From IMG/VR virus record IMGVR_UViG_3300005264_000107, positions 1 to 24,392 of that record: 24,392 bases of DNA. One strand, written 5' to 3'. Shown here piece after piece: positions 10,035-21,481 of this stretch. Below the pieces are notes generated by a model. That model worked only from the letters and a program-made list of their open reading frames with translations, ran no database searches and was not told the DNA's origin. Both the position numbers and the translations under genes were made by a program. The DNA is from a virus. Numbering within the stretch: position 1 is the stretch's first letter; every line of letters starts with the position of its first letter.

Positions 10035-10054
10035 AAGTTCCATATCTGGAACTT
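10035..10054. promoter_or_regulatory. Operator-like inverted repeat AAGTTCCA-N4-TGGAACTT
   Basis: Two perfect eight-base arms separated by TATC, lying in an AT-rich non-coding segment. The geometry suits a dimeric DNA-binding protein. The half-site contains GTTCCA, the hexamer clustered at 18587-18845. A shared regulator is an inference. Confidence 0.55.
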
Positions 10055-10400
10055 TTGCGAAAAAAATGCAGCAAACGGGGCTTTTCTCGGTCTGCTGGCA
10101 GACAGATTCGGTACGGCGATGCGGAAATATTCCGGCAAAAAATTCTTTCCCTGCCTGAGTCGCAGCAGACAATCGTTGCGGCTCGCGGTGGAACGCGAGC
10201 ATATTGGACACTCGGACTTGGGCTGTAGTCGCATCCGTGAAACACATCAGGGCATGAAAGAAACACGGCGGCCGCCGGCCTCGTAGGTGGGATTCCATGC
10301 ACGCAGCCATTACGGAAGAGGTGTTGCGTCCGTACAAGGGGAATTGGAAAATCATCGACAATAATCTGAAATGATCAAGGGGTTCTAATCCGTCGTCCGA

Positions 10401-16608: not shown

Positions 16609-16818
16609 TCATCTCACATCCTCCACCGCCCCGGATAATTCCGGGGCGGTTTCGTTTTGCTCGAAGGTCGGCAATGCAAAAATGATCAACTCCCGGATCG
16701 CCCGCGAGACCGTCACGCCGTCGCGGTCCGCGATCCGGGAAAGCTGTTCGTACAAATCCTCGTCGCACCGAAACGCGACCATCCTGGCACGTGGGATTGT
16801 GGGTGAAATCCGTTTCAT
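16609..16818 (-). CDS. Ribbon-helix-helix (CopG/Arc-like) DNA-binding protein
   Basis: A 69-residue protein read from the ATG at 16818, which overlaps the methyltransferase stop as ATGA and has GGAG about five bases upstream. A longer reading would intrude into the methyltransferase in another frame and is rejected. The N-terminal strand and two helices fit an RHH fold: ARMVAFRCDEDLYEQLSRIA, then DRDGVTVSRAIRELIIFALP. RHH proteins bind operators as dimers through the strand. It is the last gene of the right-arm operon. Its final 15 codons lie on top of the plus-strand terminator, so the two convergent operons share that DNA. Autoregulation or control of the methyltransferase is plausible but unproven. 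Confidence 0.75.
   Translation of the reverse strand: MKRISPTIPRARMVAFRCDEDLYEQLSRIADRDGVTVSRAIRELIIFALPTFEQNETAPELSGAVEDVR
16625..16658 (+). terminator. Rho-independent terminator of the plus-strand cassette
   Basis: An 11-base perfect stem (ACCGCCCCGGA at 16625-16635, TCCGGGGCGGT at 16640-16650) with a TAAT loop. On the plus strand it is followed by a T-rich tract (TTTCGTTTT). On the minus strand no T-tract follows, so it acts in one direction. It lies inside the end of the RHH gene. Confidence 0.85.
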
Positions 16819-18173
16819 TTTTTCTCCTTCGTTTTGGTGGGTTTGTCCTCCGTTTTGACGGACTTGTCCGCGGGGATCCGTTCGGCCTTGCCGCCAGTGA
16901 ACTGCTCCCAACGTTTCACGATCACGTCGCAGTAAAGCGTGTCGAGTTCCATCAGGTAGGCGTGTCGCCCGGTCTGTTCACAGCCGACCATCGTCGAGCC
17001 GGAACCGCCGAAAAGGTCCAGAACATTCTCGCCGGTTTTGGAGGAATACTGGATCGACCGGACCGCTAACTCGGCGGGTTTTTCCGTCAAATGGACCATC
17101 TTTTGGGGACACACTTTTTTGACGTGCCAGAGGTCCGTGGCGTTGTTTGGCCCGTAAAAATGGTGCCCTGCGCCTTCCCTCCACCCAAAAAAGCAAATTT
17201 CGAAGGCACCCATGAACGTTTTGCGAGTCAGGACCGGATGCTGTTTGTCCCACACGATTCCCTGGCTGAAATACAGCCCCGAGGACTTCAGCGGCGCGGG
17301 GTAATTACCGAGGTTGGCGTACCCGCCCCAGATGTAAAATGACCCGCCGGGCTTCAGGACGCGCGATGCGTTTCCGAACCACGCCAGGAGCATCTCGTCA
17401 AACGCATCGTCGGACACAAAGTCATTTTCCAGCGGTCGGTCCTTGGCCCTCATTTTCCGCTTGGCCTTCTTTGTGTCGATCGCGCCGCGTTCCACGTCGA
17501 ATTTCTGGTGGTGCATCTTCTTCGAGAGGTCCGGATGCGAACTCATTCCCGCGGCGATGGCGGTGCTGCTGCGCGGCTCGATTTTCACGTTATACGGGGG
17601 ATCCATATTTACCAGGTCGATGGTTTTTCCATCCAGCAAGCGGTCCAGATCCGCCTCGCTTCCACTGTCGCCGCACAGCAGCCGGTGGTTGCCCAAGACC
17701 CACAGGTCACCGGGTTGCGTGATCGCCTCATCCGGCGGTTCGGGAACTTCGTCCGGGTCGGTCAGGCCCTCGGTGAGGTCCATCTCGAGCAAGCCGGCCA
17801 GGGCCTTCTCGTCGAATCCCAGCAGCGACAGATCGAACTCCATGCCCTGCAGGTCCTGCAACTCGATGGGCAGCAGGTCGTAATCCCATTCCGCCAGGGT
17901 CGCCGTCTGGTTGTCCGCGATCCGATACGCCTTGATCTGCTCGGCCGTCAGGTCCGTGGCGACGTGGACGGGAACCTGCTTGAGGCCAAGCTTCAGACCC
18001 GCCTTCCACCGGGTATGACCGACGATGATCACCCCGTCGGAATCCACCACGATCGGTTGGCGGAACCCAAACTCCCGGAGGCTCGCCGTGACCGCCTTGA
18101 CGGCCCCGTCGTTGATGCGTGGGTTGGCCTCGTAAGGCTTGATTTCATTGATGTTTCTGGTTGTTACGTTCAT
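16815..18173 (-). CDS. ParB-domain N6-adenine DNA methyltransferase
   Basis: A 452-residue enzyme with GAAAGGA eight bases before the ATG. Residues 1-95 form a ParB/Srx-type domain (NINEIKPYEANPRIND, then DGVIIVGHTRWKAGLKLG). The methyltransferase follows with DPPY at residues 191-194 and the S-adenosylmethionine loop FGGSGST at 388-394, with HLTEKPAEL between. DPPY before the FxGxG loop defines a beta-class amino-methyltransferase that methylates adenine N6 or cytosine N4; DPPY favours adenine. The Lys/Thr-rich tail is probably disordered. No restriction gene is visible, so it is likely an orphan phage methyltransferase protecting or regulating its DNA. ParB-methyltransferase fusions are common in phages. 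The target site cannot be read from the sequence. Confidence 0.9.
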   Translation of the reverse strand: MNVTTRNINEIKPYEANPRINDGAVKAVTASLREFGFRQPIVVDSDGVIIVGHTRWKAGLKLGLKQVPVHVATDLTAEQIKAYRIADNQTATLAEWDYDLLPIELQDLQGMEFDLSLLGFDEKALAGLLEMDLTEGLTDPDEVPEPPDEAITQPGDLWVLGNHRLLCGDSGSEADLDRLLDGKTIDLVNMDPPYNVKIEPRSSTAIAAGMSSHPDLSKKMHHQKFDVERGAIDTKKAKRKMRAKDRPLENDFVSDDAFDEMLLAWFGNASRVLKPGGSFYIWGGYANLGNYPAPLKSSGLYFSQGIVWDKQHPVLTRKTFMGAFEICFFGWREGAGHHFYGPNNATDLWHVKKVCPQKMVHLTEKPAELAVRSIQYSSKTGENVLDLFGGSGSTMVGCEQTGRHAYLMELDTLYCDVIVKRWEQFTGGKAERIPADKSVKTEDKPTKTKEKK

Positions 18174-18294
18174 TGGAAAATCCTTTCTAAAAAATTTCTA
18201 CACCGGAAAGAAACTCTGTCTATTAGCACGGCTGGTCCCACTGGCGTCAGGAGAACTGATTGCCCGGAAGTACCTATTCGCTTTGCCGTATATG
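18174..18294. other. Spacer before the methyltransferase gene
   Basis: The 121 bases between the Cys-rich small gene and the methyltransferase hold the methyltransferase ribosome binding site (GAAAGGA at about 18182-18188) preceded by an A/T-rich tract. I see no gene, terminator or convincing promoter. Co-transcription with the upstream gene is likely. Confidence 0.4.
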
Positions 18295-18495
18295 TTATTC
18301 ACTTGCTTGCTCCACTCGCGCCGGATCCCCACAACAACGGGAAAACTTCCCGCACCAGGACGACACTGTGACCACGGGCCACCGACTGGGAAGAGGCCAG
18401 CTATCGCTGGCGACCGGTGGTGAGTGACGGCACTCGCCTTCAGGGCGATTTAGGTTCTCGAAAAACTTGCAGCATCCGCATCGTTTTTGGGTCAT
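18295..18495 (-). CDS. Small Cys-rich protein, probably zinc- or metal-binding
   Basis: A 66-residue protein from the ATG at 18495, with GAAAGGA five bases upstream. It reads CGCCKFFENLNRPEGECRHS, then PP, a Trp-rich segment and SSWCGKFSRCCGD. The pattern CxxC-F-(x)n-GxCR..PP-(x)n-WCG-F resembles short, widespread phage proteins of unknown role in which the spaced cysteines probably hold a metal ion. The open frame can be extended upstream to 18915, but that part is a repetitive intergenic region and lacks a ribosome binding site. It is the first gene after the GTTCCA array. The function is unknown. Confidence 0.7.
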   Translation of the reverse strand: MTQKRCGCCKFFENLNRPEGECRHSPPVASDSWPLPSRWPVVTVSSWCGKFSRCCGDPARVEQASE

Positions 18496-18832
18496 GACAT
18501 TCCTTTCGATTTGGGGTGTATAAAAACTTGTATAACTTTTTGTTTTCACGTTCTCGCGGCCCCCCCGTAGGGGGGGAGCGCCCGAGGTTCCAGCATATGT
18601 TCCACCTGAATTTGCCCTAACCCCTTGTTTTTGCAGAAGATATCTAAGTCCAGTTTTGGAACAGTTCTGGGCGCGCCCAGATTCCGCGCCCAGGTTCCAA
18701 CCTCTTGTTTTTCCTAACCGACTTATATTCAAGGGCTTAGAGAAAATAAGTTGGAACATGAAGGCCGTTTTTTTGGAACATGGATTTTTGCCATGTTCCA
18801 GACAGGTTCCATACAAACGTCGTTTTTTCGAC
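18496..18832. promoter_or_regulatory. Candidate replication origin or operator array (GTTCCA repeats)
   Basis: A comparatively AT-rich gap between the primase-helicase and the Cys-rich gene. GTTCCA or its complement occurs at 18587, 18599, 18657, 18694, 18752, 18774, 18795 and 18806, plus 18840 inside the primase stop region. About 0.1 copy would be expected by chance over this length. Also present are the perfect palindrome CTGGGCGCGCCCAG (18667-18680), a C7-GTA-G7 hairpin (18560-18576), an inverted pair ACTTAT/ATAAGT (18721-18751) and two copies of ACAGGTTCCAT-CAAA 34 bases apart (18803, 18837). Such clusters are typical of iteron-type origins and of multi-site operators. Which of the two applies is not determined. 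Confidence 0.6.
18774..18800. repeat. Perfect 10-bp inverted repeat in the GTTCCA array
   Basis: TGGAACATGG (18774-18783) and CCATGTTCCA (18791-18800) flank a seven-base loop. A T-tract precedes it on the plus strand but does not follow it in either direction, so it is a binding-site pair or cruciform rather than a terminator. Confidence 0.75.
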
Positions 18833-21481
18833 CTAACAGGTTCCATGCAAAATCCTCCTGATTCGGTTGACATGCTGCCTAGTCGCGCCGACCTCGTTTC
18901 CGATTTCCTGCGCATCGGCGTCCGGATTATTTGCCAAAAGCGCGGCGATCCAGAGCGATTTTTCGCCGCTTACGCCAGGCCGGTTTTTGACGTAAAATGA
19001 CCTGGATCCGATACTGACTTTTGATGCGAATCCGTGATCCTGCGCCAGGTCGAGCATGTTCCGCGCGTGTCGTTCGGACAGTCCAAATTGTTTTTTTGCT
19101 TCCTGCAGGACCGTCGTTCGCAAGCAGGGATCGTGGGGCGACAGGCAGACCTCGATGAAATCTTCCATGGGGACTTCGATGGATACGAATTGCGATTCGT
19201 CGTCGCTCGCCATGGCCGCGAGGTTTTGCGCGAGGATCGCGCCGGTTTCGGCATCGATCACTTCCAGAGCCGCCGAGGCGACCGCGTTGCCGTAGTCGTC
19301 CACCAGGCCGGGGAGCTTTACCGTGTTGAGGTCCATGACGACATGTGGGGGGAGGTCCGCTTCCTTCATTTTCGTGGCCGTCAGCAGCATCCGATCGGTC
19401 TTGGACATGCGGTATTCCGCGTCGAGCGCGGCCTTCAGCGCAATGGCGCCCCGGGCGCGGTTCTTGTCGGAATGGCCGCTGTGATGGACGACCAGGACCG
19501 TGCATCCGAATCGCTTGCGAAGGTCGTCGCAGGCCGCTACGAACAGACCCATGTCCTGGGTGGAGTTCTCGTCGCCGCCCCCGAAACACCGCGCGAGGGT
19601 GTCCAGAACGATCAGGGCCGGCGGGCCAGCCTGCTCCTCGATGGCCACGACCAATTCGTTGAGCGATTCGGAATCTGTGATCCCCACCGCAGGCGCGACG
19701 AAGAGGGGCGCCCCGTCTAACTTTACGTCATTAAAAACCTCCCACGCCCGGATACGCCGCCCGAACCCCTGCTGGCCCTCTCCCGCGATGTAGACCACCG
19801 GGCCGCCCGGAACCGCATGGCCGCGCCAAGGCGTCCCCGTGGCGATCCTGCACGCCCAGTCGATGGACAGGAACGACTTGCCGCTGCCAGGGTCGCCGAA
19901 GACCATCGCCAACGTGTCACGCTCCAGCATACCGCGAAGCAGCCAGTCGGGCGGGCGGATTTCGATCTGGTCGGCGCGCGTAAGTTTGAATTTTCGCGAT
20001 TTTTGCGATGAGTTCTCGGCGGGGATCGTGCCATTGTGGGAATTGTGTGACGAGGAGGCGTGACTCTCGGTCGACATTTCCACAATCGCCGAGATGTCCA
20101 CGCTGTCGTCCACATGTTCGGATTCTCCGAAGCCCATTTCCGACAGGGCGCGTGTTGCGGCCGAGAAGTCGCCACTGTGCTCCAGGTGTGCGTAGACGGC
20201 GAAGGGACTGTAGGATTCGTTCGGTTCAAACGGCGTGGCATTGGAACTGAAAACATAGAGCGTGCTGTCCTCGATCCGCACCGTCGCGGACTGGCCGCTT
20301 TCCTTACCTGGCCTGCGCCAGAATTCGTTCACTTCGTCGCGTCGCAGGTAGGTCCAGCCGTGGGATTCCAAAAACGACCCCACGTCGCCGTGGGAATTGA
20401 AATCATCGCCGGGCCGATGCGAGACATTTTTTTCGCGATTTTCATGCGTATTTTCATGCGACCCGGTTTTCTCATGTGCGTGGGCTTTTTTATGCGTTTT
20501 TTCATTCGCATGCATTTTTTCCGCGCCCAAAACCGATGTCGATTTGACATTTCCATGCGACGCATTATTTTCGCGACTTTCATGTGTTTTTTCATGCGAC
20601 CCGGTTTTCTTATGCCCGTGGGCCGAAAAATGAGGCGAATTGTCCGAAGCATTGTGGAGTTTGTCGGAGCATACTGACCGAGAACTCGTATTTGTGGAGT
20701 TCTCGGTAGCACACTGGCGAATGTCGGAGTTCTCGGTAGCACACTGCGAGTTATCCGAAGCATCGTGGAGTTTGTCGGAACATACTGGCCGAGAACTCGT
20801 ATTTGTGGAGTTCTCGGTAGCACACTGGGAGTTGTGCGAGTTGTCGGCAGCACATTGGGAGTTGTGCGAGTTGTCGCCCGATTTTTGGCCCACAGTGGCG
20901 TTGTGGGGCGAGATTCGCCTGCCCTTGGCATCCTTGGCCGACTTGGGTTCCCCGAGCGCCCAGGCGGCCTGCATGAGCATGTCGCGTTCGGATTCGGTGA
21001 TCGTCGGCGGGTCGGCCAGATCGCCTTGGATCAGTTCGTATCCTTCCGTCGGGGCGCAGAGGAATAGACCGCCCTCACCACGAGTTTCGATCAAAGTTTT
21101 GAGTTTCCCGTCAATTCGCCGGGAGGCCAGTTTTAGGTTTCCGCTGACCGGCGTTTCGCATCGGTAGACGACGTGCTTGCCGCCGGATTGCGAGGTTTCG
21201 ACGACCAGATGGGCCAGAAGTTCGTCGGGGATTCGTTTCGACCATTCGTCATACAACATACCGCCGTGGTCGAAGTCGATCATCTCCAGGTTTCCAGAGA
21301 CTTCTCCGCAGACCAGGCAAAGCGCGTCGTGCCCGTTGGCGAACCAGGCATCCGTTTCGGCGGACGTTGGAAGCGCAGACTGATATTGCTTCCACCGCCG
21401 GACGGCCGGGCGCTTTTCGGCTCGGCGGGCTGGCAGAACGCACAACCCGGCCTCTCGATATTGTTCCGCTGTCCCCCTCAT
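18833..21481 (-). CDS. PrimPol primase - RecA-like helicase fusion with repetitive linker
   Basis: An 882-residue replication protein; its ATG overlaps the upstream stop as ATGA. Residues 1-160 form a bifunctional primase-polymerase domain, with metal-binding MIDFDHGG (D69, D71), GGKHVVYR (H103) and the glycine-rich segment IETRGEGGLFLCAPT. Residues about 200-355 are a low-complexity Asn/Ser/His/Cys-rich linker with tandem repeats. Residues 366-450 are a primase-associated domain (EFWRRPGK, YSPFAVYAHLEHSGDFSAA). Residues 508-730 are a RepA/DnaB-like ATPase with Walker A GDPGSGKS (529-536), Walker B LIVLDTLAR (623-631) and VVHHSGH. The C-terminus carries an HTH (DAQEIGNEVGATRQHVNRI). Such fusions prime and unwind phage or plasmid DNA. 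The candidate origin lies immediately downstream. Confidence 0.88.
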   Translation of the reverse strand: MRGTAEQYREAGLCVLPARRAEKRPAVRRWKQYQSALPTSAETDAWFANGHDALCLVCGEVSGNLEMIDFDHGGMLYDEWSKRIPDELLAHLVVETSQSGGKHVVYRCETPVSGNLKLASRRIDGKLKTLIETRGEGGLFLCAPTEGYELIQGDLADPPTITESERDMLMQAAWALGEPKSAKDAKGRRISPHNATVGQKSGDNSHNSQCAADNSHNSQCATENSTNTSSRPVCSDKLHDASDNSQCATENSDIRQCATENSTNTSSRSVCSDKLHNASDNSPHFSAHGHKKTGSHEKTHESRENNASHGNVKSTSVLGAEKMHANEKTHKKAHAHEKTGSHENTHENREKNVSHRPGDDFNSHGDVGSFLESHGWTYLRRDEVNEFWRRPGKESGQSATVRIEDSTLYVFSSNATPFEPNESYSPFAVYAHLEHSGDFSAATRALSEMGFGESEHVDDSVDISAIVEMSTESHASSSHNSHNGTIPAENSSQKSRKFKLTRADQIEIRPPDWLLRGMLERDTLAMVFGDPGSGKSFLSIDWACRIATGTPWRGHAVPGGPVVYIAGEGQQGFGRRIRAWEVFNDVKLDGAPLFVAPAVGITDSESLNELVVAIEEQAGPPALIVLDTLARCFGGGDENSTQDMGLFVAACDDLRKRFGCTVLVVHHSGHSDKNRARGAIALKAALDAEYRMSKTDRMLLTATKMKEADLPPHVVMDLNTVKLPGLVDDYGNAVASAALEVIDAETGAILAQNLAAMASDDESQFVSIEVPMEDFIEVCLSPHDPCLRTTVLQEAKKQFGLSERHARNMLDLAQDHGFASKVSIGSRSFYVKNRPGVSGEKSLWIAALLANNPDADAQEIGNEVGATRQHVNRIRRILHGTC
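20417..20884 (-). repeat. In-frame repeats encoding the primase linker
   Basis: A 111-base tandem duplication (within 20636-20827) encodes two near-identical copies of a segment with QCATENSTNTSS and CSDKLH. A second pair encodes HKKTGSHEKTHESRE and HEKTGSHENTHENRE. Each 111-base copy carries the perfect inverted repeat CCGAGAACTC-N9-GAGTTCTCGG (20678-20706 and 20789-20817). Confidence 0.8.

Follow-up and report, generated by a model that had tools for sequence, protein, structure and literature searches.

The 24,392-base virus record IMGVR_UViG_3300005264_000107 (analysed over its whole length, and hereafter the window) carries a minus-strand gene for an 882-amino-acid primase-helicase (18833–21481), and directly downstream of this gene lies an array of short repeats, which is the subject of this section. 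The protein joins a PrimPol primase (Pfam Prim-Pol, E = 7.5e-11) to a RepA/DnaB-like helicase (AAA_25, E = 3e-43), which matches RSF1010 RepA among solved structures (PDB 1g8y, E = 9.9e-8), and it ends in a double DNA-binding region (residues 765–882, encoded at 18836–19189, minus strand). In this C-terminal domain (CTD), a winged helix (residues ~772–832) is followed by a three-helix helix-turn-helix (HTH; residues ~840–879, coding region 18845–18964, minus strand) with the recognition helix TRQHVNRIRRIL. An AlphaFold model of the CTD had a mean predicted local distance difference test (pLDDT) score of 91.5 and the element order H H H E E H H H, i.e., a winged helix and a three-helix HTH. VIA-align 2 matched the model to the MCM C-terminus, MecI and the SAMD1 winged helix (Z of 8.8–9.8), although these are generic winged helices aligned over model residues 5–71, and the last HTH was barely tested; Foldseek gave no match to the model below E = 0.001. 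Genes for a small protein, an SF2-type helicase and a RusA resolvase lie upstream in the same direction, which makes this a replication module. On the other side of the array, the true intergenic space (~18499–18832) is bounded by a small Cys-rich open reading frame (ORF; MTQKRCGCCKFF..., 18298–18498, minus strand), which sits between the array and a methyltransferase gene and had no Pfam or PHROG match.

The first-pass annotation, made from the sequence without database searches, had marked 18560–18853 as an iteron-like array of nine GTTCCA sites in about 260 bases. An exact-match count confirmed this: there are nine copies of GTTCCA/TGGAAC within 259 bp (18587–18845), whereas the density elsewhere in the window, 19 copies in 24.1 kb or one per 1.27 kb, predicts 0.20 (Poisson P ~1e-12). 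Dinucleotide shuffles of the array region (n = 2000) gave a mean of 0.22 copies and a maximum of 3, and no other hexamer of the window reaches nine copies in 294 bp, the runner-up having seven. A background density as high as that of the array, which had been named as a possible refutation, was thus not found. Six sites read GTTCCA on the plus strand (18587–18592, 18599–18604, 18694–18699, 18795–18800, 18806–18811 and 18840–18845) and three on the minus strand (18657–18662, 18752–18757 and 18774–18779), and the array adjoins the primase-helicase gene so closely that the gene's last codons overlap the ninth site.

Other elements named in the first-pass annotation were also present, with one correction. 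The array is AT-rich (56% AT, compared with 40% for the window), above all in two site-free gaps of 52 bp each: gap 1 (18605–18656, 60% AT), which has a counterpart of ~60 bp at the same place in relatives, and gap 2 (18700–18751, 65% AT), which holds CGACTTATATTC and is a possible unwinding region. The 10-bp inverted repeat (18774–18783/18791–18800) consists of two iterons facing each other. The palindrome between iterons exists but is 16 bp rather than 14 bp long (TCTGGGCGCGCCCAGA, 18666–18681), and none was seen in relatives. A perfect GC-rich hairpin, C7-GTA-G7 (18560–18576; C7-TAC-G7 on the initiator strand), stands at the array's far end. As a separate observation, the word RCTTAY (CACTTACG, GACTTA) occurs in gap 2 and in arrays of planctomycete relatives, often apart from the iterons, and is possibly a host-factor or unwinding element. 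A reading of the hairpin as a terminator was dropped, as it has no T run after it and is not among the terminators listed by the scan. Rfam searches of the array and of the hairpin regions of relatives returned no family.

Relatives of the helicase were found by protein search in dozens of phage contigs, and the set was enlarged by further scans (loci are identified by L numbers). For each locus, the hexamer most clustered within 300 bp was taken. At 71/76 loci, the densest cluster fell in the interval −200 to +1200 relative to the helicase stop codon, and a cluster of at least seven copies lay between −200 and +1700 at 224/246. Because many of the 246 loci are near-copies, redundancy was also removed, using the last 110 residues; 32/57 nonredundant lineages had such a cluster within the 600-base tile at the stop codon, compared with 4/707 control tiles. 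The position is shared but the sequence is not, with lineage hexamers including CGTGAC, TTCCAA, AGTGGA, GTCCAA, GTCTCA, CGTTGC, GGGACA, CGGACG, TACCGA, CACCGA and ACTACG. The nearest helicases come from planctomycete (Phycisphaerae) genomes, and the host of the virus is a planctomycete bacterium. Lineages with arrays span planctomycete prophages, freshwater phages, proteobacterial prophages and several cultured phages: Alteromonas phage PB15 (GGTTCA, 13 copies), Idiomarinaceae phage 1N2-2 (GGTACA, 11 copies), Roseobacter phage CRP-823 (CTACAAA, 11 copies), Rhizobium phage 16-3 (GCGTGACA, 12 copies) and, with a weaker array of 6 copies, Salicola phage CGphi29. Relatives of the window's own CTD surfaced only in planctomycete genomes and via alignment search; searching phages and viral contigs with the CTD alone gave none, and a plasmid search gave no matches. 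We also noted arrays (GGGTGAAA, CACAAAACGAA, CACACCACGAA) at the stop codons of other planctomycete PrimPol proteins (L271, L272, L273, L276–L278, L279 and L280) whose resemblance to the window's helicase core is poor or absent, so the arrangement extends past this helicase type.

Among relatives with the window's CTD type, the arrays are built of AGTTCCG, AGTTTCA, AGTTTCCA, ATGTCCG or AGTTGACA, and most of them end at a hairpin (CCCCCTACGGGGG, or CCCCTAAAGGGG or CCCCTTACGGGG) of the form C5-7/TAC/G5-7, where the window has C7-TAC-G7. Counted from this hairpin on the initiator strand, the window's nine sites, in order of increasing coordinate, lie at −21(−), −33(−), −91(+), −128(−), −186(+), −208(+), −229(−), −240(−) and −274(−), and those of L269 lie at −22(−), −34(−), −93(+), −136(−), −196(+), −208(+), −226(−) and −238(−). 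Requiring a match within 4 bp and in the same orientation, and summing over ten relatives that are not independent of each other, 48 window sites were matched, compared with a random mean of 14.3, and 1/5000 random layouts did as well; taken singly, four relatives reached 4/5000 or better. Spacing, whose lack of conservation would have counted against an origin, is therefore conserved together with orientation among relatives sharing the CTD. Within the hairpin stem, pairing is kept through two-sided changes in three pairs. Other lineages have an array hairpin centred on TATA, TTAA or similar (25/40 arrays, compared with 8/1196 control windows under a strict rule). At several loci (L284, L286, L289, L270, L288 and their relatives), a second, longer hairpin stands directly past the CCCCCTACGGGGG hairpin, together with a GTAGGG that could pair with CCCTAC to give mutually exclusive structures; this arrangement is absent from the window.

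The sequence of the sites follows the tail of the protein. Across 40 nonredundant lineages, motif similarity was correlated with CTD identity once helicase-core identity had been removed (partial r = 0.47, 0/2000 permutations), whereas it was not correlated with core identity once the CTD had been removed (partial r = −0.12). The same held in a planctomycete clade of 15 members (CTD, partial r = 0.53, 0/2000; core, 0.02). Two natural swaps illustrate this. First, L161 and L162, two contigs of one metagenome-assembled genome, have cores that are 92% identical and CTDs that are 51% identical, and their iterons are unrelated (ATTCCAAT, of the TTCCAA type, vs CGTGACG); the L162 iteron instead matches those of distant cores that share its CTD type. 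(AlphaFold was confident for the winged helix only of the L162 CTD, ~residues 55–119, pLDDT near 90.) Second, and conversely, the window and L269 are ~35% identical in the helicase region and 47% identical in the CTD, and carry GTTCCA and CAGTTCCG, respectively, as iterons.

Within the CTD family, it was the identity of the last HTH (HTH2) that predicted the hexamer (partial r = 0.49, 1/5000), a permutation figure that is optimistic because the 17 sequences are related and their consensus hexamers were picked by hand; identity of the winged helix (HTH1) did not predict it (partial r = −0.04). The pattern can be put as a rule, in which SERY(V/I/L)RQ goes with GTTCCG, SERH(V/L)RRIK with TGTCCG, RQYV or SQYV followed by Q(I/V)R with GTTTC, SRQYVYQLR with GTTGAC, and the window's TRQHVNRIR with GTTCCA. 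Five loci retrieved once the rule existed (L298, L301, L305, L309 and L311) all fit it, and L298 combines a winged helix that is nearly that of L269 with an HTH and an iteron of the TGTCCG type. Of the protein's parts, it is thus the C-terminal HTH, already proposed as the binder in the first-pass annotation, that gives the best prediction of the site sequence, and it is the predicted iteron reader. Judging from this covariation, iteron specificity probably lies in the helicase CTD, as it does in the Rep-ori modules of Staphylococcus aureus pathogenicity islands (SaPIs).

Considering these results together, we predict with high confidence that 18560–18845 is the replication origin (ori) of this virus and that the adjoining primase-helicase is its dedicated initiator. 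The HTH of the initiator would bind the GTTCCA iterons and the winged helix would add contacts, as covariation and fold suggest. Several molecules bound at fixed positions and orientations could then assemble RepA-like hexamers and melt one or both AT-rich gaps. The C7/G7 hairpin, either extruded or single-stranded, might stop or position the helicase or serve the fused PrimPol as a start site, which is the least certain step; PrimPol would then lay primers and the replisome would depart. The array may have an additional regulatory role. We entertain more tentatively, and consider somewhat doubtful, the broader proposal of a widespread family of one-protein initiators with interchangeable C-terminal HTH modules, which would bind the iterons of each lineage through a readable residue-to-base code; the iterons would keep fixed distances from a conserved GC hairpin at which the fused PrimPol starts. 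If that were true, a phage's origin and its specificity could be predicted from the 20 residues at the protein's C-terminus.

Several observations weigh against the prediction of an origin. A strong array at the stop codon is missing from about 40% of the nonredundant relatives, including Endozoicomonas prophages, L091 and L287/L297, the last of these with a CTD of the window's type; the cultured phages BFK20 and Nocardia phage NBR1 are likewise without an array. At five loci (L012, L016, L023, L028 and L076), the array lies 0.7–1.6 kb downstream, beyond another gene. The window's hairpin is missed by the TATA criterion and is identified by comparison with the CTD relatives, and the hexamers of the HTH comparison were, as noted, read by hand. 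Finally, GC skew, a check proposed in the first-pass annotation, is nearly flat and marks no origin.

All of the alternatives are disfavoured on one ground: the array accompanies the initiator gene and tracks its CTD. We consider it unlikely that the array is instead a multi-site operator, at which a repressor or the initiator itself would control the downstream operon (the small Cys-rich ORF and the ParB-methyltransferase gene). The array does lie 5' of a co-directional operon, the downstream genes are co-directional in several cultured phages too, and a gene for a ribbon-helix-helix protein is nearby (16609–16911). However, the array keeps to the 3' end of the replication gene although the downstream gene varies, and the motif covaries with the CTD of the initiator. 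In addition, nine sites in 260 bp with two gaps of 50–60 bp would be unusual for an operator, and a scan found no sigma-70-like promoter at the array, with the caveat that planctomycete promoters may differ. Still less probable is a parS-type (centromere-like) array to which the adjacent methyltransferase would bind through its ParB_N domain. That domain is recognized by Pfam (E = 3.3e-7), but it is part of a methyltransferase fusion with no ParA seen, no ParB gene is annotated beside the arrays of cultured phages, and the motif goes with the helicase CTD. Chance or compositional clustering, excluded by the shuffles and the Poisson figure, and sites for a host regulator such as LexA, with its GTTC-rich boxes, are extremely improbable, as only one pair of sites (18795/18806) fits GTTC-N7-GTTC, the alphaproteobacterial LexA spacing, and the array cores of most relatives are without GTTC.

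The predicted origin resembles several known systems in part. One likeness is to SaPI Rep, a self-loading initiator helicase whose C-terminal domain is established to bind iterons directly downstream of its own gene, as has also been shown for Cch2 of the staphylococcal cassette chromosome SCCmec (AAGTG iterons) (PMC7581432). Here such binding is predicted: the array's place directly downstream of the initiator gene is a likeness by position only, and origin specificity conferred by the CTD is suggested by covariation only. The helicases of the SaPI and SCC elements are D5-like or DUF927, whereas that of the window is AAA_25, RepA-like and fused to PrimPol, and the two-part winged helix and HTH tail and the fixed hairpin are features of the window. 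Since CTD-iteron binding is known for SaPI Rep and Cch2, this would be a known kind of module assembled from different components. In the IncQ plasmid RSF1010, RepC binds iterons, RepA unwinds and RepB' primes at a small hairpin (PMC4234260). The window's helicase is a homologue of the hexameric RepA, and by analogy the RepC, RepA and RepB' functions may map one to one onto the window's protein; the difference is that one polypeptide, with primase and DNA-binding domains together, holds what RSF1010 divides among three proteins. The window's hairpin, which is conserved in CTD relatives, may act in the manner of the RSF1010 single-strand initiation (ssi) sites, judged from their description.

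Among PrimPol proteins, ORF904 of pRN1 combines PrimPol, helicase and winged helix, and it has an essential stem-loop 3' of its gene in which the structure is kept as the stem sequence varies (PMC4234260), as is also the case for the hairpins of the window's type. In contrast, its helicase is SF3, its stem-loop is 100 nt long and its authors report no iterons (PMC4234260), which the window has. From the ssi sites and this stem-loop, the window's hairpin might be a priming or loading element, again the least certain assignment. Phage P4 alpha is a primase-helicase whose winged-helix domain binds origin repeats (PMC4234260), a similar combination in which the primase is instead of the Toprim (DnaG) type. 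PrimPol-helicase domain fusions of this sort were described by Kazlauskas et al, 2018 (PMC5862659), in whose text the word iteron does not occur. Our literature search found no paper on iterons downstream of PrimPol-RepA genes in phages, although it covered subscription literature thinly, making this absence weak evidence. The origins of most uncultured phages are unknown; in the groups with arrays named above, sequence suffices to place the predicted origin, its initiator and the probable reader part of the protein. Given the natural domain swaps, short proteins and short duplexes would be enough for a direct test of a protein-DNA recognition code, and the constant layout about the hairpin limits how a RepA-like helicase and PrimPol load together.

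Two further features of the window lie outside the array. First, a minor group of three GTTCCA copies occurs in ~160 bp at 10037–10194, far from the putative origin. Second, a conserved noncoding element of ~67 nt (18206–18276, minus strand) has the form TAGGTACTYC-N-GGGAAC-N-ACAGAGTTTGTTT with a near-constant span. It matched no Rfam family and showed no convincing RNA covariation, and some of the retrieved stretches stop a few bases past it. The element also occurs in L155 (~6255), L004 (~7335) and the viral contigs L325–L399, and it lies upstream of a homologue of the ParB_N-methyltransferase gene in 65/75 viral contigs; a packaging (cos) site and a leader element are leads only as to its role.

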